IMG/VR virus record: IMGVR_UViG_3300029286_000291
Coordinates: 1-20,755 of that record
DNA from: a virus
Direction: 5' to 3' (one strand)
DNA length: 20,755 bases
The stretch's first letter is position 1; each line of letters opens with the position of its first letter. Made by a program: the position numbers and the translations under genes. Shown here one piece after another: positions 1-12,391 of the stretch. A model generated the notes under the pieces. The model saw nothing but the letters and a program-made list of their open reading frames with translations. It searched no databases and had not been told where the DNA came from.

Positions 1-24
1 TATCTGGGTGAGATGGTGAATAAG

Positions 25-145
25 GGTGCCCGTACCGTGAAGCTCGGGGTGAACCGATGAAAGTCCGAGTGCCGCAGGCGTCAGCCAGAGCGAGCGTGGG
101 GATAGTTACTTGACTAGCTCGTAGAGCCAGGATTCTTGGGGAGTA
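25..145 (+). ncRNA. possible structured RNA, cobalamin-riboswitch-like by eye
   Basis: No convincing protein gene covers this stretch. Short blocks occur in the order expected for a cobalamin riboswitch: GGTGCCC (25-31), GGGGTGAA (46-53), CGATGAAAGTCCG (55-67) and AGCCAGGA (125-132), the last resembling the B12 box. CCC at 29-31 can pair with GGG at 47-49. A competing stem is CTCGG 43-47 with CCGAG 65-69. The conserved core around CCCGCCACTGT is not recognisable, so this may be another RNA, such as an intron-type fold, or chance. GC content falls from about 62% (61-120) to about 42% (121-180). Confidence 0.2.
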
Positions 146-177
146 GAGTCGATCTGATGTGGATAATCAACATCAAA

Positions 178-244
178 AATGCCGAGCTTGCCAGCACCCA
201 GCCATAGGCATTGAATCTATTTCGTTTTATTGCGTTTTATGAGG
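178..244 (+). promoter_or_regulatory. AT-rich leader of the terminase genes with short repeats and RBS
   Basis: The leader holds an inverted repeat, AATGCC (178-183) with GGCATT (207-212), and a direct repeat of CGTTTTAT at 223-230 and 233-240. The ribosome binding site GAGG (241-244) sits eight bases before the terS ATG. Small terminases bind DNA near their own gene in several phages, so a packaging or operator site is possible. Nothing here proves that, and no clear -35/-10 promoter pair was found. Confidence 0.25.
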
Positions 245-252
245 CTTCTTAA

Positions 253-639
253 ATGTTCAAGTGGAATAAAAAGCGCAGATTAGCGCTATCTCTAATAATA
301 GAAGGCGAAAAAGACCAAGCGGGAATAGCCGTTGAGTGTGGCGTTTCTAAAAGGCTGATTCAATATTGGCTTGCTGAACCTGAGTTTGAGTTACGGCGCA
401 AGGAAATAGAAGACGCGCGAGTTATGTCAGCTAAGCGCCGGTTTCAAGCGGCGGCTGAAGAGGCAGCCCAAACGGTTATAACCCTATCGCGCGCAAGCAC
501 CCGTGATGATGCGGTAAGATTGCAAGCCTCAATGGCAATCCTGAAATGCGTCGGGATAGCGCCAGACAAGGCAGAATTAAGCGGTTCGGACGGGAAAGAA
601 TTAGTCATCGAGGTTACGGTAAAAAAACATGGCGATTAG
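253..639 (+). CDS. terS: terminase small subunit
   Basis: A 128-residue protein that would recognise phage DNA and load it onto the large terminase. A helix-turn-helix lies at about residues 18-42 (QAGIAVECGVSKRLIQYW), followed by a helical, charged region at about 45-100 suited to oligomer assembly. The C-terminal tail GSDGKELVIEVTV is a form often seen at the end of small terminases, where the portal or large subunit is contacted. The ATG at 253 is preceded by GAGG eight bases upstream. The gene is immediately upstream of a homing-type endonuclease and then terL. GC is clearly lower (about 35-45%) than in the head genes further on. The assignment rests on domain type, size and position. Confidence 0.85.
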   Translation: MFKWNKKRRLALSLIIEGEKDQAGIAVECGVSKRLIQYWLAEPEFELRRKEIEDARVMSAKRRFQAAAEEAAQTVITLSRASTRDDAVRLQASMAILKCVGIAPDKAELSGSDGKELVIEVTVKKHGD

Positions 640-1066
640 TGGGATTTATGCCATTGTAAACAAGATAAACGGGCATAGATATGTTGGGTCATCTTCTAAC
701 ATAACAGAACGGTGGAAAAGGCACGTATCCAGACTAGAAAATAAAAACCATCACAGTAGACATTTGCAGCATGCTTGGGATTATTATGGCAGAGATAGCT
801 TTGATTTTATTGTCATCGCTGAATGTGCCGTGAGTGCTAGGATGATGGGGTATTGCCCATCCGAAGAAACACGGAGAAAGCTGAGTGAGATAAATCGCAC
901 ATATCGACATACTGATGAAGCCAAAAGGAAAATCGGCGAGGCTGCCAGAGGCAATAATTATGCGTCCCACAAACATACTCCCGAAGAAATAGAGCATCAA
1001 AGGGTAAAGATGCAAGAGTATTGGGCGCGGCGCAAGGCAACGACAAGTGCCGAAAGTAAAAATTGA
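629..1066 (+). CDS. GIY-YIG homing-type endonuclease, apparently internally deleted
   Basis: A 145-residue relative of free-standing homing endonucleases of the SegE/I-TevI type. The N-terminal half of the GIY-YIG domain is intact: G5-I6-Y7, Y18-V19-G20, R28 and H32, then the typical HAWDYYGRDSFDF strand (48-60). After A64-E65-C66 the protein jumps straight to repeated NUMOD3-like DNA-binding motifs (SEETRRKLSEI 78-88, DEAKRKIGEAARGN 96-109, and a third at 117-136). The usual segment with the metal-binding glutamate (LxxREQxWID) and the YN motif is missing, so nuclease activity is doubtful. It overlaps terS by 11 bases and terL by 20. Base composition matches terS and the first half of terL, so it shows no sign of having entered separately. 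Confidence 0.8.
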   Translation: MAISGIYAIVNKINGHRYVGSSSNITERWKRHVSRLENKNHHSRHLQHAWDYYGRDSFDFIVIAECAVSARMMGYCPSEETRRKLSEINRTYRHTDEAKRKIGEAARGNNYASHKHTPEEIEHQRVKMQEYWARRKATTSAESKN

Positions 1067-2303
1067 TCCTGTTATTTTTAATTCGGTCTATATGCCGTAC
1101 CTAGATTGTATGAGTAGAACTCAAATCCTGTTTGGTGGCGCTTCCAGTGGGAAATCGCGGTTCATAGCACAAAGATGCGTCAAAGATGTTATGAAGAATG
1201 GGAGTAGGCGTAATTATCTAGTATGCAGACAGACGGCAAGGACAATGAAAACCTCAGTCTTTGCAGAGATATGTCGGGTAATAGATGAGTGGGGCGTTTC
1301 GCAGTTCTTTCACATCAACAAAAGCGACTATCTGATTCATTGTCTCAATGGCTACCAGATTGCATTTATTGGATTGGATGATACTGAGAAAATCAAGTCA
1401 ATCGTACCGGCTAAGGGCGCGTGGACTGATTTATGGATAGAAGAGGCTACAGAATGCGACAGGGCAACAGTTAAGCAGTTATTCAAACGCCAGCGTGGGG
1501 GAGATGAAGACGTGCCCAAAAGGATGACACTCTCATTCAACCCGATACTACAAACGCACTGGATATTCGAGGAATACTTTAAGAGCATAGGTTGGGCTGA
1601 CACACAGACAGAGTATCACGGCGACGGCCTTTCGATATTAAAAACTACCTATAAAGACAATCGCTTTTTGACGGCTGAGGATATAGCCGGACTAGAGAAC
1701 GAAAAGGATAAATACTTTTATGACGTTTACACTTGCGGAAACTGGGGTCTGCTCGGCCACGTCATCTTTACGAACTGGAGAGTAGAGGATTTGAGCGGTA
1801 TGCAGGCGCAGTTTACCAACCACCGCAACGGCCTGGACTTTGGATTCTCATCCGATCCGGCTGCGTTGTGGGTGTCGCATTACGACCGCAAGACCAAGAC
1901 GATCTATGTCTATGATGAACTGTACGAGACAGGCCTGACCAACGATGTGCTGGCAGAGCGCATCAAAGCCAAGATCGGGACTCAGATGGTGACGTGTGAT
2001 AGCGCAGAACCCAAGTCGATAGCGGAGTTGCAGATGCACGGCGTTTCGGCAGTGGGCGCGCAAAAGGGTAAGGACTCGGTGCTGTTCGGTATCCAGTGGC
2101 TGCAACAGCAGACCATCGTGGTGGACACTGGGTGCATCAACGTGCAAAACGAGCTGAGGCAGTTCCATTGGAAAGAAGACGCAGGCGGGCATCAGTTACC
2201 GATTCCGGCGGCAGGATATGAGCACCTGATAGACGCCGGAAGGTATGCGCACGAAGGCGATAACGAGCAAGGCGTCGAATCCATGCCCGGCCTGTATAGG
2301 TAG
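1047..2303 (+). CDS. terL: terminase large subunit (DNA packaging ATPase/nuclease)
   Basis: A 418-residue Terminase_3/PBSX-type packaging motor. The ATPase half shows Walker A GGASSGKS (30-37), Walker B with catalytic acid in DLWIEEA (128-134) and a coupling motif SFNP (163-166). The nuclease half shows GLDFGFSSDP (262-271), a second acidic site CDSAEP (317-322) and a last one in HLIDAGRYA near the C-terminus, as expected for the RNase H-like fold. The start is GTG at 1047, with AAGG nine bases upstream, overlapping the endonuclease gene by 20 bases; the N-terminus has normal length. GC is about 37-45% up to base 1740 (residue 232) and 50-58% after it. The break lies between the two domains. 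Confidence 0.95.
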   Translation: MPKVKIDPVIFNSVYMPYLDCMSRTQILFGGASSGKSRFIAQRCVKDVMKNGSRRNYLVCRQTARTMKTSVFAEICRVIDEWGVSQFFHINKSDYLIHCLNGYQIAFIGLDDTEKIKSIVPAKGAWTDLWIEEATECDRATVKQLFKRQRGGDEDVPKRMTLSFNPILQTHWIFEEYFKSIGWADTQTEYHGDGLSILKTTYKDNRFLTAEDIAGLENEKDKYFYDVYTCGNWGLLGHVIFTNWRVEDLSGMQAQFTNHRNGLDFGFSSDPAALWVSHYDRKTKTIYVYDELYETGLTNDVLAERIKAKIGTQMVTCDSAEPKSIAELQMHGVSAVGAQKGKDSVLFGIQWLQQQTIVVDTGCINVQNELRQFHWKEDAGGHQLPIPAAGYEHLIDAGRYAHEGDNEQGVESMPGLYR

Positions 2304-2312
2304 GTGAGATAA

Positions 2313-3662
2313 ATGCTTGACTTGGCAGCCAACCAATTTCAGCAACGACAACAAGCAGCACAATCAGGACGCCTGGCCGATTACAAGCGCCGCTGGCAGT
2401 ACTACCACGGCGAGCAACGGCAATCGCTGAAGGTGGCCGAAGGGCAGCCCAACGACAACTTGGTAATCAACCTGGCGCGCTACATCGTGGACAAGGGTGC
2501 AGCTTTCCTGTTTGGCAAGGAAGTCGGATTCCAACTAGAGGAAGGAAGCCAGACGTCAGCCGAGGGTGCGCTCAAGCAGATATGGGCGCGCAACCGCAAG
2601 ATGACGTTTTTGCTCAAGTGCGCAACCCAGGGCGCCATATTCGGGCATGTGTTCATCAAAATATTAAAGGACTATTACGGACCCGGCCTGGCGCGATTTG
2701 TGCTGATTGACCCGGAATACGTCACCTGCTTTTGGAACGGCGATGACATCGAGGCGGCATACCGCTACCTGATCGAATGGACAGAGCAAGGTCCAGACGG
2801 TAAAGCGGTCAACAGGCAGACGGATATTGTCAAGGACAGCGCGACCGGTCGCTGGAGCGAGATCCACCGCGTGAGCAAAGGCAACCGATATGAGCCCGAT
2901 CCGGCGTATCCCGACATCGACCCGTGGCCGTACAACTGGCCGCCGATCATCGACTGCCAGAACATCCCATGCCCCGGCGCGTTATATGGGCTGAGCGACC
3001 TGGAGGATCTCGACGAACAGGACGCGCTCAACTATGTGGCATCCAAGACCAACCGCATCTTACGCTATCACAGCCATCCCAAGACGTGGGGGCGCGGATT
3101 CCAGAAGTCGCAAGCCGAGATCGGGCCGGATGAAATGATGATCATCAACGGACCAACGGGCGAGCTGCATAATCTGGAAATGCAGAGTGACCTTTCGAGC
3201 AGCTTGAACTTTTATGACCGCCTGGAGCAGGCCTGTATGCGTTCCGGCCGGGTGCCCAACCTGACGCCGCATAACCTGACAGTGGGCGCGCAATCGGGGT
3301 TTTCGCTGCGCATCCTGCACGGCGACCTGATTGAAAAGACCGACGCCAAGCGCTGCACCTACGGCGATATGCTCATTGAGTTGAACCGGCGCGCGCTGGA
3401 GATGGCAGGGCACGGCGACGGCAACGTTACGAGGTTGGACTGGGCTGATCCATTACCAGTAAATGCTACGGAAGCGATGGCGGAAGACGGCTTTGACCTC
3501 GATCGAGGTCTTGCGGCCAAAAGTACAGTCCAGGCGAAACGAGGATACGACCCGAAGAGCGAAGACGAGAAGATCACTGCCGAAAGCAGTGCGGAGGATT
3601 TACGCTCGGGCAATGTGGGTTCGTTGATTCTGAGGCAGTTCAACCAGGGACAAGGGGTCTAA
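2313..3662 (+). CDS. portal protein (SPP1 gp6-like)
   Basis: A 449-residue protein that should form the dodecameric ring at the capsid vertex through which DNA is packed and ejected. Recognisable portal features are the N-terminal WQYYHGEQ (about 28-35), NLVINLARYIVDKGAAFLFG (about 49-68), the domain leading to VLIDPEYV (residues 129-136), and the helix region around LEDLDEQDALNYVASK (about 231-246) before the C-terminal wing. Length is normal for the SPP1 gp6/Phage_prot_Gp6 family. GGTGAG precedes the ATG. The stop overlaps the next start as TAATG. Position directly after terL and before a MuF-like gene supports the call. Confidence 0.93.
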   Translation: MLDLAANQFQQRQQAAQSGRLADYKRRWQYYHGEQRQSLKVAEGQPNDNLVINLARYIVDKGAAFLFGKEVGFQLEEGSQTSAEGALKQIWARNRKMTFLLKCATQGAIFGHVFIKILKDYYGPGLARFVLIDPEYVTCFWNGDDIEAAYRYLIEWTEQGPDGKAVNRQTDIVKDSATGRWSEIHRVSKGNRYEPDPAYPDIDPWPYNWPPIIDCQNIPCPGALYGLSDLEDLDEQDALNYVASKTNRILRYHSHPKTWGRGFQKSQAEIGPDEMMIINGPTGELHNLEMQSDLSSSLNFYDRLEQACMRSGRVPNLTPHNLTVGAQSGFSLRILHGDLIEKTDAKRCTYGDMLIELNRRALEMAGHGDGNVTRLDWADPLPVNATEAMAEDGFDLDRGLAAKSTVQAKRGYDPKSEDEKITAESSAEDLRSGNVGSLILRQFNQGQGV

Positions 3663-7229: not shown

Positions 7230-8429
7230 ATGGGTTTACGAATTTTATTCTTTTCTAACGCGCCGTGGTGTAATACCGGGTACGGAACTCAGACCGCGCA
7301 GGCCTGGTGGCGCATCCAGAAGCTAGGGCACAAGATCGTGGCCATCGCAGCCAACTATGGCCATGAGGGCATGCCGCTGAACGTCGAGGTCAACGGCGAA
7401 AAGGCCGAGGTGTGGCCAAAGGGGTACAGCCAGCATGGGAACGATATTCTTGCCATGCACGCCAAAGCAGCTAAGGCGGATATCGTGATCACGCTGTACG
7501 ACAGTTGGATATTCGACCCGCGGATTACGGCGCAGTTTCGTTGGGTTCCCTGGCTCCCGATTGACCACGATCCAGCGCCCCCGCAAGTGGTACAGGCACT
7601 CAAGTCGGCATGGCAACCGATCTGCTATGCCCAGTACGGCATGACCAAGCTGCGCGAGGCCGGACTCGACCCGTTGTACGTCCCGCACGGCATCGAGACC
7701 AGCATATTCAAGCCGGGAAACCGAGAAGAAGCGCTGGCCAAACTGGGCGTAACCGACTGCGATTATTTGGCGGTGATGGTAGCGGCCAACAAAGGCGCGC
7801 CAAGCCGCAAGTCGTTCCGCGAGGTGTTCGTTGCGTTTGCCAAGTTCGTAAAGAACCACCCCAAGGCGATGCTGTATGTGCACTCGCATACTGGCGTCGA
7901 GATGGCAGGCGAGGATTTGGAGGGGCATGCGCAACTGGCAGGGATACCGAAAGAGAATCTGCGCTTTGCCGACCAGTACAGGTTAATTATGGGCTACCCG
8001 CCCCAGGTGCTGGCCACGTTTTACCAGGCGGCCAACGTGCTGTTATCTCCAAGTTACGGCGAGGGATTCGGGCTGCCGATTATCGAGGCGCAAGCCTGCG
8101 GGTGTCCGGTGATCGTCAATGATTGCAGTTCTATGCCGGAGTTGTGTTTTGCGGGTTGGAAAACGACCAACACGCCGTTCGCAACGCCTTTTATGGCGAA
8201 CCAATTCAGGCCGGATATCGAGAGCATCTACCAGTGCCTCGAAGAGAGCTACAAGGTCAAGAGCAGCGATATGCTCAAGCGCAAAGCGGTCAACGGCGCC
8301 AAGAACTATGACGCCGACCTGGTGGCTGAAACCTATTGGAAACCGGCGCTGGAAAAGATCGAGGCGGACATCCGGCAGACGACCACTACGGCGACATCGG
8401 GCGTGGTATTCGAGGATCATGCAGCATGA
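7230..8429 (+). CDS. GT4-family glycosyltransferase
   Basis: A 399-residue GT-B fold glycosyltransferase that would move a sugar from a nucleotide donor to an unknown acceptor in the cytoplasm. The N-terminal Rossmann-like half starts LRILFFSNAPWCNTGYGTQT with a glycine-rich acceptor-side loop. The donor half holds the linker HGIETSIFKPG and the GT4 signature SYGEGFGLPIIEAQACGCPVI region, with the EX7E pair E278 and E286. There is no signal peptide or membrane anchor. It starts the five-enzyme cassette, with GAGG five bases before the ATG, and its stop overlaps the next start (ATGA at 8426-8429). GC resembles the flanking head genes. Confidence 0.9.
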   Translation: MGLRILFFSNAPWCNTGYGTQTAQAWWRIQKLGHKIVAIAANYGHEGMPLNVEVNGEKAEVWPKGYSQHGNDILAMHAKAAKADIVITLYDSWIFDPRITAQFRWVPWLPIDHDPAPPQVVQALKSAWQPICYAQYGMTKLREAGLDPLYVPHGIETSIFKPGNREEALAKLGVTDCDYLAVMVAANKGAPSRKSFREVFVAFAKFVKNHPKAMLYVHSHTGVEMAGEDLEGHAQLAGIPKENLRFADQYRLIMGYPPQVLATFYQAANVLLSPSYGEGFGLPIIEAQACGCPVIVNDCSSMPELCFAGWKTTNTPFATPFMANQFRPDIESIYQCLEESYKVKSSDMLKRKAVNGAKNYDADLVAETYWKPALEKIEADIRQTTTTATSGVVFEDHAA

Positions 8430-9676
8430 GCACCATCCAGCTTTTTAATGCCCCGCAATTCCATTATGGCGGCATGCGCTACCGCATGAATCCGCCGCTG
8501 GGATTGCCGATTCTGGCGGCAGTGCTGCAGAACGCTGGCCACCAGGTGACCGTGATCGACCTGGAAGCGATGGGGATATCGCCCAACCAGTTCGCAAGCT
8601 CCTTCACGAGCCAAAAGGGACGCTGGCCGGGCGTGATGGGATTCACCTGCTTGACGCATACCCGACGCGGCGTGAGAGAGTGCATCGGAGCAGCCAGGAA
8701 CATCGGCTACAAAGGCTACATCCTGGTGGGCGGTCCGCACATGAGCCTGAACGCAGCCGAAACCATCGAGTGGGGCGCAGACTGCGCTGTGGTGGGCGAA
8801 TGCGAAGGCAACATTGCCAACATCGTAACAGAACAACCGGCGGGTATTGTGCAAGGCATCGCAGCGCCAATTGAACAGATACCCGCGCCGTTGTGGGCAG
8901 AGCACTATCCCAAACCTGAGACGTACCAGGGCAACGAACCACACCTCGCAGCACCGGGAGGGATTGCGATGTGGAGCCGAGGGTGCCCGCACAGCTGCAC
9001 GTTCTGCGGCAACCCGGTGTTCGGGCATAGCAAGATCAGGTACGCGCCGCCGGAGAACGTCTACCGCGACATGGCAGCATTGAAGGAGCGCGGTATCAAG
9101 GCGGTATTCGTCTATGACGATGAGATGGTCGGCTTGAATGCAGAGCAAGGCGAGTGGCTCAAAGCGTGCTGCGAGAAGATAGCGCCGTTGGGGTTGCTTT
9201 GGAAGTGCCAGGGGCGATGCAATGCCAAGACCGATGCGAGTGTTTACGAGGCGATGTATGACGCTGGTTGCCGCGTGATCATGTGGGGAGTCGAGAGTTT
9301 TAGCCAGCCCGTGCTGAACACCATGCACAAGGGCACAGACGAGGCTGATATTTGGGCAACGCTTCAAGCGGCGCACAAAGCAGGCATTGCCAACTGGCTA
9401 TTCCTGATGGTGGGCAATTACGGAGAGACCTCAATCGATCTGGCCTACACCGAGGCGCAACTGCTAAAGGCAAAAGACGAGGGGCTGGTGCAGTACAAAC
9501 AGGTGACGGTGTGCACGCCGGTGCAGGGAACCAGGCTGTACGACAAGGCTAAGAGCGAGGGGTGGCTGGTTGAAGCGCCGGAGGCTGGCCCTCAGATGAA
9601 CCAGGTGTACACGGGTACGCCGTGGCTATCAGCGCACGAGCTAGAGTTCTGGCATAACAGGCTGAGGGCGTTATGA
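8426..9676 (+). CDS. B12-binding-type radical SAM enzyme
   Basis: A 416-residue protein with an N-terminal cobalamin-binding-type Rossmann domain (about 1-135: PPLGLPILAAVLQNAGHQV at 23-41, LVGGPHMSLN at 100-109, VVGECEGN at 122-129) and a radical SAM domain with the 4Fe-4S motif C187-x3-C191-x2-C194 in SRGCPHSCTFCG. Enzymes of this architecture are often methyltransferases or catalyse ring rearrangements or oxidative steps, using SAM. The DxHxxG B12-ligand motif is absent, as in other members of this class, so B12 use cannot be assumed. The start at ATG 8426 is chosen over an in-frame ATG at 8336 because it gives the ATGA overlap and a normal N-terminus. Substrate unknown; a sugar or lipid-linked sugar fits the neighbours. 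Confidence 0.88.
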   Translation: MSTIQLFNAPQFHYGGMRYRMNPPLGLPILAAVLQNAGHQVTVIDLEAMGISPNQFASSFTSQKGRWPGVMGFTCLTHTRRGVRECIGAARNIGYKGYILVGGPHMSLNAAETIEWGADCAVVGECEGNIANIVTEQPAGIVQGIAAPIEQIPAPLWAEHYPKPETYQGNEPHLAAPGGIAMWSRGCPHSCTFCGNPVFGHSKIRYAPPENVYRDMAALKERGIKAVFVYDDEMVGLNAEQGEWLKACCEKIAPLGLLWKCQGRCNAKTDASVYEAMYDAGCRVIMWGVESFSQPVLNTMHKGTDEADIWATLQAAHKAGIANWLFLMVGNYGETSIDLAYTEAQLLKAKDEGLVQYKQVTVCTPVQGTRLYDKAKSEGWLVEAPEAGPQMNQVYTGTPWLSAHELEFWHNRLRAL

Positions 9677-10470
9677 AGCATATCCTGATCTGCCCGACGT
9701 GGGCTTGCCAAAACCACTGCCGCTATTGCTGGATGGATTACACCGTGCGGGCGCGGCCCGAGATGATGGACGCGATGCAAAGGCCGGCAAGCGATTGGAT
9801 CGCAGCTATCAAACGCGAGCCGGTGATGGTGGATATTGCAGGCGGAGAGCCGCTGCTCTACCACGGGATATGCGAGATCATCGAAGGGTGCCCGGAGACC
9901 ACGTTCGGCCTGAGCACCAACGGAATGCATGTGGAAGGAATCAATAAGCTGGTGGCTGCCAGGTTGCTGAACCTGATCAGCATCAACCTGAGCATCCACG
10001 CGGATAACGGACAAGCGGCCTATTTCGACAGGTTCAAGGCGGCGTTCCTGCTGCTGAGGGCGACGGGATACAACGTGTTCGCGTCGGTGGTCAAGTATGA
10101 GGACGAACTGGCACAGGCCAGCCCATTGCTAGGTTGGCTGCGAAGGAACGGCGCGACGATTGTGGAATCGCCGTATGAGGATATGCACCCGGATAAGCAG
10201 CCCAGGACACCACCGCTAGTCTGCGATGCAGGCGTGAACCACCTGGTGATGGCGCCGGACGGATCCGCCTGGCCGTGTTTGGGCGCGATGTGGTCAACCC
10301 AATGGCGCGAGACGATGCTGGGCAACTGGCTGGATGATACGGTGGATGTGAGCCGAGTGCCCAAGCCGTGCAAGTTATATTGCGAGAGTTACGTGTACCT
10401 ACTGAGCGAGCACCCAAGCGGCGACATGTGGAAAACGAACGTCAGAGTTTATCAGGGGGCTGGTAAATGA
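9673..10470 (+). CDS. radical SAM enzyme with short SPASM/twitch-like C-terminus
   Basis: A 265-residue radical SAM protein. C12-x3-C16-x2-C19 (in WACQNHCRYCW) would bind the catalytic 4Fe-4S cluster, and GGEP (57-60) is the SAM-binding motif. The C-terminal part has four further cysteines: C184 (CDAG), C202 (after DGSAWP), C233 and C237. This pattern suits a twitch or half-SPASM domain holding one auxiliary cluster. Such enzymes modify peptides, proteins or sugars; family relatives include dehydrogenases and epimerases. No small precursor peptide gene lies next to it, which argues against a RiPP pathway. It joins both neighbours by ATGA overlaps (9673-9676, 10467-10470), with GAGGG four bases before its ATG. 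Confidence 0.88.
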   Translation: MKHILICPTWACQNHCRYCWMDYTVRARPEMMDAMQRPASDWIAAIKREPVMVDIAGGEPLLYHGICEIIEGCPETTFGLSTNGMHVEGINKLVAARLLNLISINLSIHADNGQAAYFDRFKAAFLLLRATGYNVFASVVKYEDELAQASPLLGWLRRNGATIVESPYEDMHPDKQPRTPPLVCDAGVNHLVMAPDGSAWPCLGAMWSTQWRETMLGNWLDDTVDVSRVPKPCKLYCESYVYLLSEHPSGDMWKTNVRVYQGAGK

Positions 10471-11402
10471 AAGTGCTGATTACAGGAGTGGATGGGTTTA
10501 TTGCGGCCAACCTCGCCAAGCTGATGATCGAGCGCGGGCACGAGGTGACGGGCATGGCGCTCAATCGCAAAGGCGCAACATCGTTAGATGCACTAAATAT
10601 CAAGTGCAGAGTAGAGTATGGCGATGTGACCGATGCAGCGTTTGTGGAGCGGGTCATCAACAGCACGGAGGCGCAAATTGTCTACCATCTGGCAGCGGTT
10701 AGCATCGTTAGGAAGGCGGCGGCAAATCCCGCGCTCTGTCTACGCACCAACATCGTAGGAACCATCAACGTGCTCGACGCGTGCGCGAAAGCCGGTCATG
10801 TCGAGGCTTGCGTTGTTGCGTCAAGCGACAAGGCATACGGCGATCATGACGGGCATGCTTATGGAGAGACAGACGAGCTCAAGCCGACAGGCACCTACGA
10901 AGTGAGCAAGGCCTGCGCCGACCTGATCACGCGCACCTATCCGGGGGGACACTGCCGGATGATGGTGACCAGGTGCGGCAACGTGTACGGTCCAGGCGAC
11001 TTGAACTGGTCGCGGCTGGTGCCGAACTCAATACGGAACGCCATCAATGGGATGCCGCCGGTGATCCACGCCGACGCCTGGAACTATCGGCGCGAGTGGG
11101 TGTATGTGCGTGACGCGTGCATGGCTTACGAGGCCATTGCCGAAAAAGGGTATGGTGGCGAGGCCTACAACATCGGCAGCGGGGTAACGACATCCGCCGG
11201 TGATATAGCTACCGAGATAGCCAACAGCATGGGCGCGCCGATGCCGATAATCGCAGGGGCGCTCATGTGCAGGGAGATCCCGGAACAGGCGCTAAACTGC
11301 ACAAAAATCGCGGAATTGGGCTGGAAATGTGCATTTAGCCACGAAATTGGGTTGCAAGATACCATCAAGTGGTACACAGCATACCTGAGGTGGCCGCGAT
11401 GA
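10467..11402 (+). CDS. NAD-dependent sugar-nucleotide dehydratase/epimerase (extended SDR)
   Basis: A 311-residue extended short-chain dehydrogenase. The nucleotide-binding loop is TGVDGFIA (6-13), with Ala in place of the third Gly. HLAA is at 74-77, the catalytic serine region is SSDKAYG (119-125), and the catalytic pair is Y144 and K148 in YEVSK. RCGNVYGPGD follows (about 170-180). SSDK-Y is reminiscent of the TSDKCY motif of CDP-glucose 4,6-dehydratase, so a 4,6-dehydratase on an NDP-hexose is a good guess, although an epimerase is possible. A nucleotidyltransferase, sugar aminotransferase or 3,4-ketoisomerase is not encoded in the window, so the substrate and later steps would come from the host. 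It starts at ATGA 10467 with AGGGGG upstream. Confidence 0.88.
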   Translation: MKVLITGVDGFIAANLAKLMIERGHEVTGMALNRKGATSLDALNIKCRVEYGDVTDAAFVERVINSTEAQIVYHLAAVSIVRKAAANPALCLRTNIVGTINVLDACAKAGHVEACVVASSDKAYGDHDGHAYGETDELKPTGTYEVSKACADLITRTYPGGHCRMMVTRCGNVYGPGDLNWSRLVPNSIRNAINGMPPVIHADAWNYRREWVYVRDACMAYEAIAEKGYGGEAYNIGSGVTTSAGDIATEIANSMGAPMPIIAGALMCREIPEQALNCTKIAELGWKCAFSHEIGLQDTIKWYTAYLRWPR

Positions 11403-12391
11403 GAGTCTTGATTTGCAGTGAAGACAATCGGGAACCTGGCAAGGGCGGCGGCGCCGAGAGCCTGATGCGCGACATCACTCTGGGGCTGCACAACCGCGGG
11501 CATGAGGTGGGCTGGTGGTTTGGCGACGAACCGCTGGCAGTAGCGATTGATACGTTCAAGCCAGACATTGTCCAGGTGCATACGGTGCACAACCGCTTTG
11601 GGATGCAACCGGCGATGTATCTGCAAAGGCACCGCATACCGCATGTGTGGGTGCTGATGGATTACTGGCCATTCTGCGGCGGTCGAATGCTGCTGCAAGA
11701 CAGGCAAAAGACATCGTGCCCGGCGGTGAACGGCGAGTGCGAGGAGAGTGCAGGCTGCGAACTGGGGCGCGCGCCAGGGCAGTTTTTGGAAATCGTGAAC
11801 CGGTCGCCGATTGTGGCATTGAACCCCAACACGGCGGCGATTTACAAACGCAACGGGATCCGGGGGACGGCTACCATCGGCTGCGGGGTGGACACCGAGT
11901 ATTTCAAGCCAGCGCCGGACAAGCGCGAGTGGGGCAGGATCATCACCACCAGCGCGTGGCCGGAATACCCAACCAAGGGGCTGCACATCCTGGAGAAGGC
12001 AGCGGATCAGGCCGGGCTAACCGTGCATGTGGTGGCGCATGTGACGCGTGAACAGGTGCGCGACGCACTGCAAACGGGCAGCATATTCGTCTTTCCAAGC
12101 ACCTATGAGGAGACGTGGGGCCTATGTTTGACCGAAGCGATGGCCACCGGATTAGCCTGTATCGCGTCCAACGTATGTGGACCGCGGGCGCAAATCGCAG
12201 ACGGCGAGAACGGGTTGCTATTCGAGAACCGCAACACCGACGAACTGGCCGCTAAGCTGCGCGAACTGGTTGATGACGATGCAGAACAGCAGCGGTTGGG
12301 CGCCAACGCCAGGGCGTGGGTCGAAGCTTATGCGACGCTGGACATTATGGCAAGCAAGTATGAGCGATTGTATAAGGCGGTGATTGGATGA
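11399..12391 (+). CDS. GT4-family glycosyltransferase, second copy
   Basis: A 330-residue GT-B glycosyltransferase. It starts MRVLICSEDN and has a glycine-rich GKGGGAESLM loop (14-23), a cysteine-rich stretch at about 91-120 (FCGG, then SCP, GEC and GCEL) that might bind a metal, IGCGVDTEYFKP near 160-171, and the GT4 motif with E238 and E246 (EETWGLCLTEA). The start is ATG 11399 rather than an in-frame ATG 30 bases upstream, because GAGGTGG (11387-11393) is correctly placed and an ATGA overlap results. It differs clearly in sequence from the first transferase, so the two probably add different sugars. It ends in an ATGA overlap with the head-tail connector. Confidence 0.9.
   Translation: MRVLICSEDNREPGKGGGAESLMRDITLGLHNRGHEVGWWFGDEPLAVAIDTFKPDIVQVHTVHNRFGMQPAMYLQRHRIPHVWVLMDYWPFCGGRMLLQDRQKTSCPAVNGECEESAGCELGRAPGQFLEIVNRSPIVALNPNTAAIYKRNGIRGTATIGCGVDTEYFKPAPDKREWGRIITTSAWPEYPTKGLHILEKAADQAGLTVHVVAHVTREQVRDALQTGSIFVFPSTYEETWGLCLTEAMATGLACIASNVCGPRAQIADGENGLLFENRNTDELAAKLRELVDDDAEQQRLGANARAWVEAYATLDIMASKYERLYKAVIG

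Follow-up and report, generated by a model that had tools for sequence, protein, structure and literature searches.

A composition break between the motor and nuclease halves of a phage terL gene as a probable footprint of intronless homing

How did one terL gene come to have two halves of different base composition? In the window (the whole stretch of 20,755 bases analysed here), recursive likelihood segmentation detected a single GC change-point, at 1734/1735, where GC rises from 45.4% to 57.4% (lnL gain 45.8). For terL alone, the best change-point is 1735 with a 2-lnL interval of 1715 to 1820 (+ strand; best estimate 1735-1740, codons 229-231) and GC goes from 43.0% to 56.4%, while GC3 steps from 46.8% to 71.7% at codon 231 (nt 1740). 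The observed GC step was not reached in any of 2000 codon shuffles of terL; of 2000 shuffles preserving both the TerL protein and its synonymous codons, none reached the GC3 step and one the GC step. This confirms the abrupt break reported in an earlier note on this DNA, which had given 60-base line values as found here (36.7% GC at 1681-1740, 53-58% at 1741-1860). The 418-aa terL ORF contains both an ATPase domain (Pfam Terminase_3, 1e-45) and an RNase H-like domain (Terminase_3C, 1.3e-18). The low-GC block in terL corresponds to the N-half with the ATPase/motor domain (1047..1739, + strand; Terminase_3 at residues 24-221; GC 43.3%, GC3 46.8%) and is followed by the C-half with the nuclease domain (1740..2303, + strand; Terminase_3C at residues 264-401; GC 56.1%, GC3 71.7%), whose composition is genome-like. 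Because Terminase_3 ends at residue 221 and Terminase_3C starts at residue 264, the break is located in the inter-domain linker, between motor and nuclease as the same note had stated. The downstream portal gene (2313..3662, + strand; SPP1_portal, E 1.1e-21) has a GC3 of 71.3%, typical of the genome.

Upstream, the terS gene encoding the terminase small subunit (253..639, + strand; PHROG 2538, E 1.2e-15) has a GC3 of 58/128, similar to the 168/376 of the endonuclease gene and terL N-half (p 0.92) and unlike that of six later genes pooled (2277/3304; p 6.5e-8). The left edge of the block therefore lies outside the view in the window, and terS may be part of the imported block. The earlier reading of terS as 35-45% GC was wrong, since lines 301-600 have 48-55% and the whole gene 48.4%. 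Between terS and terL sits a free-standing gene (629..1066, + strand) whose product displays a GIY-YIG domain (PF01541, E 1.4e-10; 41.8 bits for a cut-off of 22.6) and NUMOD-type DNA-binding repeats (NUMOD3, 4.7e-8; 33.3 bits for a cut-off of 20.4). The GIY-YIG match spans profile positions 3-56 of 78, whereas eight other GIY-YIG homologues reach positions 69-78, and the alignment has a gap across the EQ..(LI)D..P.YN block, a late conserved block containing a Glu and an Asn whose roles we take to be those known in I-TevI. Since the end of the catalytic domain is absent, the gene is probably dead and, judging from its sequence, is a homing-endonuclease gene by descent and probably not an active enzyme. 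A search for introns with Rfam gave zero matches at gathering scores, both for the window and for seven loci, and the window terL is one open frame. At a relaxed Rfam threshold, the lone match in window positions 1-2400, to snoR22 (E 0.65), was taken as chance.

A survey of 156 distinct full-length TerL rows revealed 10 with a GIY-YIG gene immediately preceding terL, in the same place as in the window; endonucleases were found by similarity to five GIY-YIG proteins (E 1e-5), so that "endonuclease-free" means without a relative of these, HNH and other families aside. When the 156 are ordered by their GC3 step at codon 231, these 10 rows take ranks 1-9 and 33, with steps of 0.19-0.27 for ranks 1-8 and of 0.121 for rank 9 (L031), compared with 0.119 for the gene-free L185. 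Counted by lineage, the step exceeds 0.12 in 6/7 endonuclease lineages versus 3/125 rows without an endonuclease gene in this gap, all 125 having at least 600 bases upstream (21 rows with shorter upstream sequence were excluded); the measure varies slightly by script, the maximum for rows lacking the gap endonuclease being 0.119 in one and 3/125 exceeding 0.12 in the other. The best eight GC3 change-points of the 156 (lnL 10.0-15.8) all belong to endonuclease rows and all fall at codons 230-241, while the ninth-best (lnL 9.6) is at codon 178, has the opposite sign and has no such gene in view. Individual change-points were placed at codons 229-231 in L008, L012, L014, L193, L210 and L213 and at 238-241 in L020; L193, L210 and L213, which were added later via N-half similarity, agree with the association. 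In L222 the gene is present and the step weak, with a change-point lnL of 4.8 that is within the range of gene-free rows, which counts against homing. GC3 values for the endonuclease gene, N-half and C-half are.43,.43 and.69 in L054,.45,.47 and.65 in L020,.19,.19 and.43 in L193,.34,.35 and.57 in L210, and.41,.47 and.72 in the window. Residue 230 is other than L, M, V, I or F in 8/8 rows with a break at codon 231 versus 23/148 other rows (rows that are not independent), and is Leu in the remaining two endonuclease rows. The break is recurrent, several lineages having it at the same codons, and is strongly associated with the endonuclease gene.

The situation before and after the change is illustrated by L021, which has neither endonuclease nor step and no insert at the site. 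When L008, L012 and L014, which carry the gene, are compared with it, DNA identity switches from 60-61% to 86% at codons 237-239 (interval 226-242; lnL about 51), the flank having been replaced along with the gene. L054 and L010 share with L021 a homologous gene in the terS position (77-84% DNA identity in aligned stretches) and differ from it in the GIY-YIG gene and in terL codons 1 to about 237, with L021 providing the matching empty site. In this pair, endonuclease and motor half have been replaced and the upstream gene is still homologous. No close relative of the window was found, and portal and TerS searches of viral contigs returned zero relatives.

The low-GC block, which stops at terL codon 231, was in our view likely left behind by intronless homing. 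In a mixed infection, the endonuclease would cut the terL of an endonuclease-free phage near conserved linker codons, ca. 226-242; repair templated by the endonuclease-bearing genome would then copy the endonuclease gene and the motor half up to the cut, and the recipient would retain its own nuclease half. The cut would be made by the endonuclease itself and at the break, and the changed residue at codon 230 may confer immunity. We infer that the event in the window was also of the homing kind, its now probably inactive endonuclease placing it late in the homing cycle. The GC step has an identical sign (N-half lower) in all endonuclease lineages, a uniformity that would not be expected from random donors and that counts against homing.

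Similar arrangements have been described. In excerpts of PMC2988022, T4 segG is located at 32/59 with gene 32 as target and segF at soc/56 with gene 56 as target, and co-conversion of cleavage-site flanks is described. The present case resembles this intronless homing and marker exclusion by SegF and SegG in having a free-standing GIY-YIG gene next to its putative target, but differs in that this target would be terL, that cleavage is a proposal here, and that in several lineages replacement stops at one and the same linker, leaving a two-parent protein. According to parts of the study by Barth, Dunham and Seed 2023 (PMC10448857), homing-endonuclease genes (HEGs) occur at boundaries of genetic exchange and in HEG islands, a terminase gene is found in 35% of T5orf172 neighbourhoods, and an ICP1 HEG lies beside a split terL. 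As in that study, homing-endonuclease genes occur close to essential phage genes; its islands, however, are high-identity blocks of several genes with brackets on either side, whereas here half a gene moves together with a single GIY-YIG/NUMOD3 gene, and the ICP1 terL is intron-interrupted, whereas Rfam gave no intron match in the loci searched here. Endonuclease genes are also found in the packaging region of lactococcal Skunavirus, where passages of PMC12724721 discuss them as homing vehicles; unlike here, those enzymes belong to the HNH family and one located between terL and portal is interpreted in that work as serving in packaging.

A swap of terL motor halves by ordinary recombination between phages, at a conserved linker motif and with the endonuclease gene as a mere passenger on the swapped DNA, is a rather unlikely alternative but one that accounts for part of the data. 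As it would have it, conservation is strong in many of the linker columns of codons 227-244, and breakpoints with no GIY-YIG gene in view are as strong or stronger. Four distinct strong terL DNA breakpoints (lnL >25) were detected, of which one involves endonuclease rows; the others occur at codon 258 in L048/L056 (lnL 154, stronger than the endonuclease-row one; upstream view of 281 bases in L048), at codon 193 in L177 and L175 versus L179, and at codon 121 in L046/L047 (upstream view of three bases in L047). That three of the four involve no endonuclease rows counts against homing. In trees of 53 rows the disagreement between the halves amounts to 958 and 583 lnL, versus 143-284 for four random splits with matching numbers of columns, and a scan of split positions peaks at codon 231 (gain 506) within a broad curve (484 at codon 150). 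Without the nine endonuclease rows, separate trees still gain 270 lnL at codon 231, with a peak of 314 at codon 150; terL mosaicism is therefore not only endonuclease-linked, and this family-wide disagreement counts against homing as its sole cause. Recombination with a passenger leaves unexplained that, among the 156 rows, each of the eight with the largest codon-231 steps has an endonuclease upstream, that residue 230 is changed in the eight break-at-231 rows and Leu in the other two endonuclease rows, and that break positions vary by endonuclease type.

The idea that separate trees of the two halves would conflict held for sibling loci: N-half data reject a grouping of L008/L012/L014 with L021 and kin (p-AU 3e-4), C-half data reject their grouping with L020 (p-AU 2.8e-5), and their N-halves cluster with L020, L210 and L022 (100/97; bootstraps not settled). 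For the window alone the two halves do not conflict significantly (p-AU 0.146 for N, 0.153 for C; 0.095 in another test), which counts against homing there. In 59-row trees the window N-half is not firmly placed (p-AU 0.41 with L021/L017/L043, 0.068 with the L008/L020 set), and once loci were added it grouped with L172 (99/91; bootstraps not settled), the AU p values of the window still exceeding 0.05.

The earlier note had favoured exchange of terS and the TerL motor as one functional module, the two proteins having to fit, with the nuclease staying on the portal side. The exchange of a motor half with its break in the linker is borne out, decisively by the identity jump and tree conflict in the siblings and by composition in the window, and the L008 and L021 DNA is indeed collinear downstream of terL; the window portal gave no tblastn match in the C-half kin L008, L012 and L021. 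Partnership of terS and motor as the general unit is not supported, since the gene in the terS position is homologous between L021 and L054/L010 with the motor half replaced (terS identity being by position), and it is the endonuclease that is the linked partner. This module remains improbable as an explanation, even though terS in the window is as low in GC3 as the block, whose left border is not seen, and the gene in the terS position is barely above the block in L210 (.41 vs.34-.35) and L193 (.26 vs.19; 70 codons). The GC3 of this gene clearly exceeds that of the block in L054 (.59 vs.43) and L020 (.56 vs.45-.47), and L172, whose N-half grouped with that of the window, has by eye a different-looking gene there. 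In the siblings L021, L054, L020, L193 and L210, "terS" is named by place and size only: a PHROGs and Pfam check of siblings' genes in this position gave a significant terS match in L031 only, the gene of L222 matching a PHROG labelled RNase E and that of L210 a PHROG without assigned function, while PHROGs gave nothing significant for those of L021, L054, L020 and L193, nor did Pfam for those of L021 and L054.

An origin of the low GC in place, via mutational bias or selection on codons close to the endonuclease gene and without import, is very improbable: N-half GC3 is below C-half GC3 in all endonuclease lineages and both tend to rise together across loci (by eye), but the L008 N-half is a different allele from that of L021 (60% vs 86% DNA identity) belonging to another tree clade and was therefore replaced, and L172, with uniformly low GC3 (.41/.40) and no endonuclease match within 5 kb upstream, looks as a donor-like phage would. 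That this single metagenome contig fuses two phages within terL during assembly is the most far-fetched reading, given the same arrangement and break codon in sibling contigs of several metagenomes, an intact terL frame across the break, and a longest exact match of 13 bases between positions 1720-1755 and 338 other loci, the parents of a chimera being possibly unsampled.

TerL is a widely used marker in phage phylogeny and also serves to infer the packaging type. A terL used for family trees can be a hybrid, its front half arriving from another phage with the neighbouring endonuclease gene, and if homing endonucleases repeatedly replace the motor half, TerL trees mix two histories, part of their conflict not being endonuclease-linked. 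Endonuclease-bearing and endonuclease-free alleles, together with the predicted cut at codons 226-242, make a selfish-nuclease versus a protein-partnership origin of domain mosaicism testable.

Extending the homing explanation, we tentatively suggest that the selfish unit may comprise the endonuclease and the terL motor half, the latter serving as the immunity part (altered codon 230), so that an essential half-gene would take part in a homing gene drive that time and again re-tops different nuclease halves, with break points set by endonuclease tail type. The like-tailed endonucleases of L008, L020, L193 and L210 (62-65% identical) go with breaks at codons 230-241 and those of L031 and L222 (54% identical) with change-points at codons 108 and 117. 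A further scan for L020-type endonucleases gave, among the matches listed (from which L193 is absent), known loci and then matches of at most 52% identity (mostly 33-47%) or partial ones, its new loci lying outside the 156-row set. When parts of the window endonuclease were compared separately, the catalytic part was nearest to L193 and the tail to L031 (59% over 59 columns; next best 40%), whose break is near codon 108 and not 231, which counts against homing for the window.

The window, a 20755-base IMG/VR virus record, carries terS (253-639), a GIY-YIG/NUMOD3 endonuclease gene (629-1066), terL (1047-2303) and a portal gene (2313-3662), followed by further head genes. Likelihood segmentation places the single GC change-point of the window at 1734/1735, and within terL the third-position GC (GC3) is 46.8% up to codon 231 and 71.7% beyond it, a rise equalled in none of 2000 shuffles that kept the protein and codon set. 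The break lies between the Pfam domains Terminase_3 (24-221) and Terminase_3C (264-401). An earlier note had described an abrupt composition break between the motor and nuclease halves of terL, which these data confirm; its GC figure for terS was too low, the whole gene having 48.4% GC overall, yet low GC3.

Relatives were collected by scanning viral and genome contigs with both TerL halves, the endonuclease and alignments. This yielded 339 loci (window included). TerL was matched by 274 of them, 45 only partially, and 156 distinct full-length TerLs resulted, again counting the window. In 10 of these 156 (the window, L008, L012, L014, L020, L031, L193, L210, L213 and L222) a GIY-YIG gene ends no more than 300 bases from the terL match, and these loci occupy ranks 1-9 and 33 by GC3 step at codon 231. 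Ranks 1-8 have steps of 0.19-0.27, while rank 9 (L031, 0.121) barely exceeds L185 (0.119), which has no such gene. Among the 125 TerLs without this gene and with at least 600 bases upstream (21 with shorter upstream being excluded), the mean step is 0.006 (sd 0.047, maximum 0.119). When ranked by GC3 change-point likelihood, the top eight (10.0-15.8) are all endonuclease loci with change-points at codons 230-241 (232 in the window; 231 in L008, L012, L014 and L193; 230 in L210 and L213; 241 in L020); the ninth, L237 (9.6), has its change-point at codon 178 with opposite sign and 403 bases upstream in view. By lineage, and with a slightly different measure of the step, values above 0.12 occur in 6 of 7 endonuclease lineages versus 3 of the 125 (Fisher p 9e-8, lineages not fully independent). 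In L053 and L076 a related gene occurs elsewhere upstream and there is no step. The imported half is the lower-GC half in every case.

What was replaced is best seen by comparison with L021, in which an endonuclease was looked for and none matched, GC is uniform, and the gene in terS position extends up to the terL start. In L054 and L010, a homologue of that gene (77-84% DNA identity in aligned stretches) is followed by an endonuclease gene and then terL. This gene, for which L021 and L054 gave no significant match in PHROGs or Pfam, is taken as a putative terS by position and size. The terL DNA of L008/L012/L014 is 60-61% identical to that of L021 at first and 86% identical beyond a switch at codon 237-239 (interval 226-242), with a lnL gain of ca. 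51, and the DNA downstream of terL is also alignable. The C-half tree joins L008/L012/L014 with L021 (99/97), and the N-half tree places them with L020, L210 and L022 (100/97), L021 there grouping with L017, L209, L224 and L245 (100/99); the bootstraps of both half-trees had not settled. N-half data reject L008/L012/L014 with the L021 group (p-AU 3e-4), and C-half data reject L008/L012/L014 with L020 (p-AU 2.8e-5) or with L020 plus L210 (p-AU 0.005), but not L020 with L210 alone (p-AU 0.31). The identity switch, upstream homology and tree conflict together show that the replaced unit there is the endonuclease plus the motor half, a type of unit that is joined to two or more different nuclease halves. 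The motor-half exchange proposed in the earlier note is thus upheld for these loci, but the linked partner there is the endonuclease, the putative terS staying homologous; in the window, whose terS shares the low GC3, terS may be part of the block.

In these same two trees the window's C-half joins the L008/L021 set (86/95; 99/86 in another tree) and its N-half joins L172 (99/91), near L193 and L033. L172 has uniformly low GC3 (.41/.40 in N- and C-half) and no endonuclease hit within 5 kb upstream, as expected of a donor-like phage. Conflict between the halves, predicted for separate trees, holds for L008/L012/L014 but is not significant for the window alone (p-AU 0.146 and 0.153). By C-half, L008 forms a set (98/94) with the step-free L021, L209, L245, L017 and L224, and the window branches outside it; two separate events at one codon are the simplest reading. 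L021, L209 and L245 gave no endonuclease hit in upstream stretches of 2.5 kb or more; for L017 and L224 the upstream in view is too short to judge its absence.

The endonucleases of L008, L020, L193 and L210 share 62-65% identity over their full length, DNA-binding tail included, and the terL breaks all occur at 230-241. Those of L031 and L222 share 54% identity, with terL change-points at 108 and 117 (weak in L222). Endonuclease GC3 is close to N-half GC3 in four sibling loci and approximates it in the window. The window endonuclease looks mixed from its alignments: for the catalytic part the closest is L193 (66%; no other above 59%) and for the tail L031 (59% over 59 columns; L222 follows in score, at 40%), with the middle missing. 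Such a tail would predict a break near 108 and not 231, a mismatch with the rule by type. Because the end of the GIY-YIG domain is missing, this endonuclease is probably inactive, as with the deleted T4 I-TevIII (PMC2988022). Endonuclease genes also replace one another, as indicated by L010 (1-2157) and L054 (3169-5316), which have different endonuclease genes, with 98.8% identity across the 1500 bases upstream and 90% from the terL start onward.

Residue 230 is Leu in 110 of 146 TerLs without the adjacent endonuclease, and also in L031 and L222. In the eight with a break at 231 it is Cys, Glu (three), Tyr and Glu (three); residues outside the group L, M, V, I and F thus occur in 8/8 of these versus 23/148 others, all counted on sequences that share ancestry. 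Glu is also found in L172 and L022 (no endonuclease hit within 1.5 kb upstream), both grouping with endonuclease-bearing N-halves. A changed codon 230 fits a putative altered cut site without proving it.

Recombination in terL also occurs with no GIY-YIG gene in view, as for three of four distinct strong DNA breakpoints (lnL >25): codon 258 in L048/L056, codon 121 in L046/L047, and codon 193 in L177 and L175 versus L179. L048 and L056 come from two different metagenomes, and their terL identity goes from 65% to 100% at codon 258, reflecting either recombination or an assembly artefact; no GIY-YIG gene was found upstream, L048 offering only 281 bases. The terL halves disagree by 958 and 583 lnL (53 TerLs) versus 143-284 for four random column splits, and the split gain at codon 231 falls from 506 to 270 once endonuclease loci are removed, so that much of it persists.

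For intronless homing, the reading favoured here, three sources provide direct precedents for the mechanism: PMC2988022 describes free-standing GIY-YIG endonucleases with co-conversion of flanks in T4, PMC10448857 deals with HEG islands and with HEGs close to terminase genes, and PMC12724721 with HNH endonucleases of Skunavirus. The primary papers cited there are Belle 2002 for SegF and Liu 2003 for SegG. Among the papers listed in searches of the open PMC library, none describes such a terL half-gene exchange in its title or abstract opening.

Other arrangements were also observed. In L075, terL is interrupted near codon 132, in the Walker B region, by ca. 0.8 kb (434-1241) containing a NUMOD4 ORF that matches HNH_3 weakly, below the cut-off (E 0.00073). 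This stretch is a candidate for an intron or another kind of endonuclease-bearing insert; it gave no Rfam match. GIY-YIG genes lie directly 3' of terL in L097, L088, L095, L096 and L410, the last being the cultured Xanthomonas phage PhiXhv-5, with the endonuclease between terminase and portal genes. L095-L097 have a second GIY-YIG gene farther on, and in L097 both are within low-GC segments. IMGVR_UViG_3300025030_000076 (80305 bases) carries two different endonuclease-terL loci, L008 and L054, in 72-80 kb and 18-31 kb, corresponding either to two related phages joined or to an odd tandem. Finally, the head genes of the window are separated from the later structural genes by five genes (7230-12391), two of which match glycosyltransferase families and the other three B12-binding radical SAM, radical SAM and NAD-dependent epimerase families; they are predicted to form a sugar or metabolic cassette within the virion gene block, which to our knowledge is unusual.
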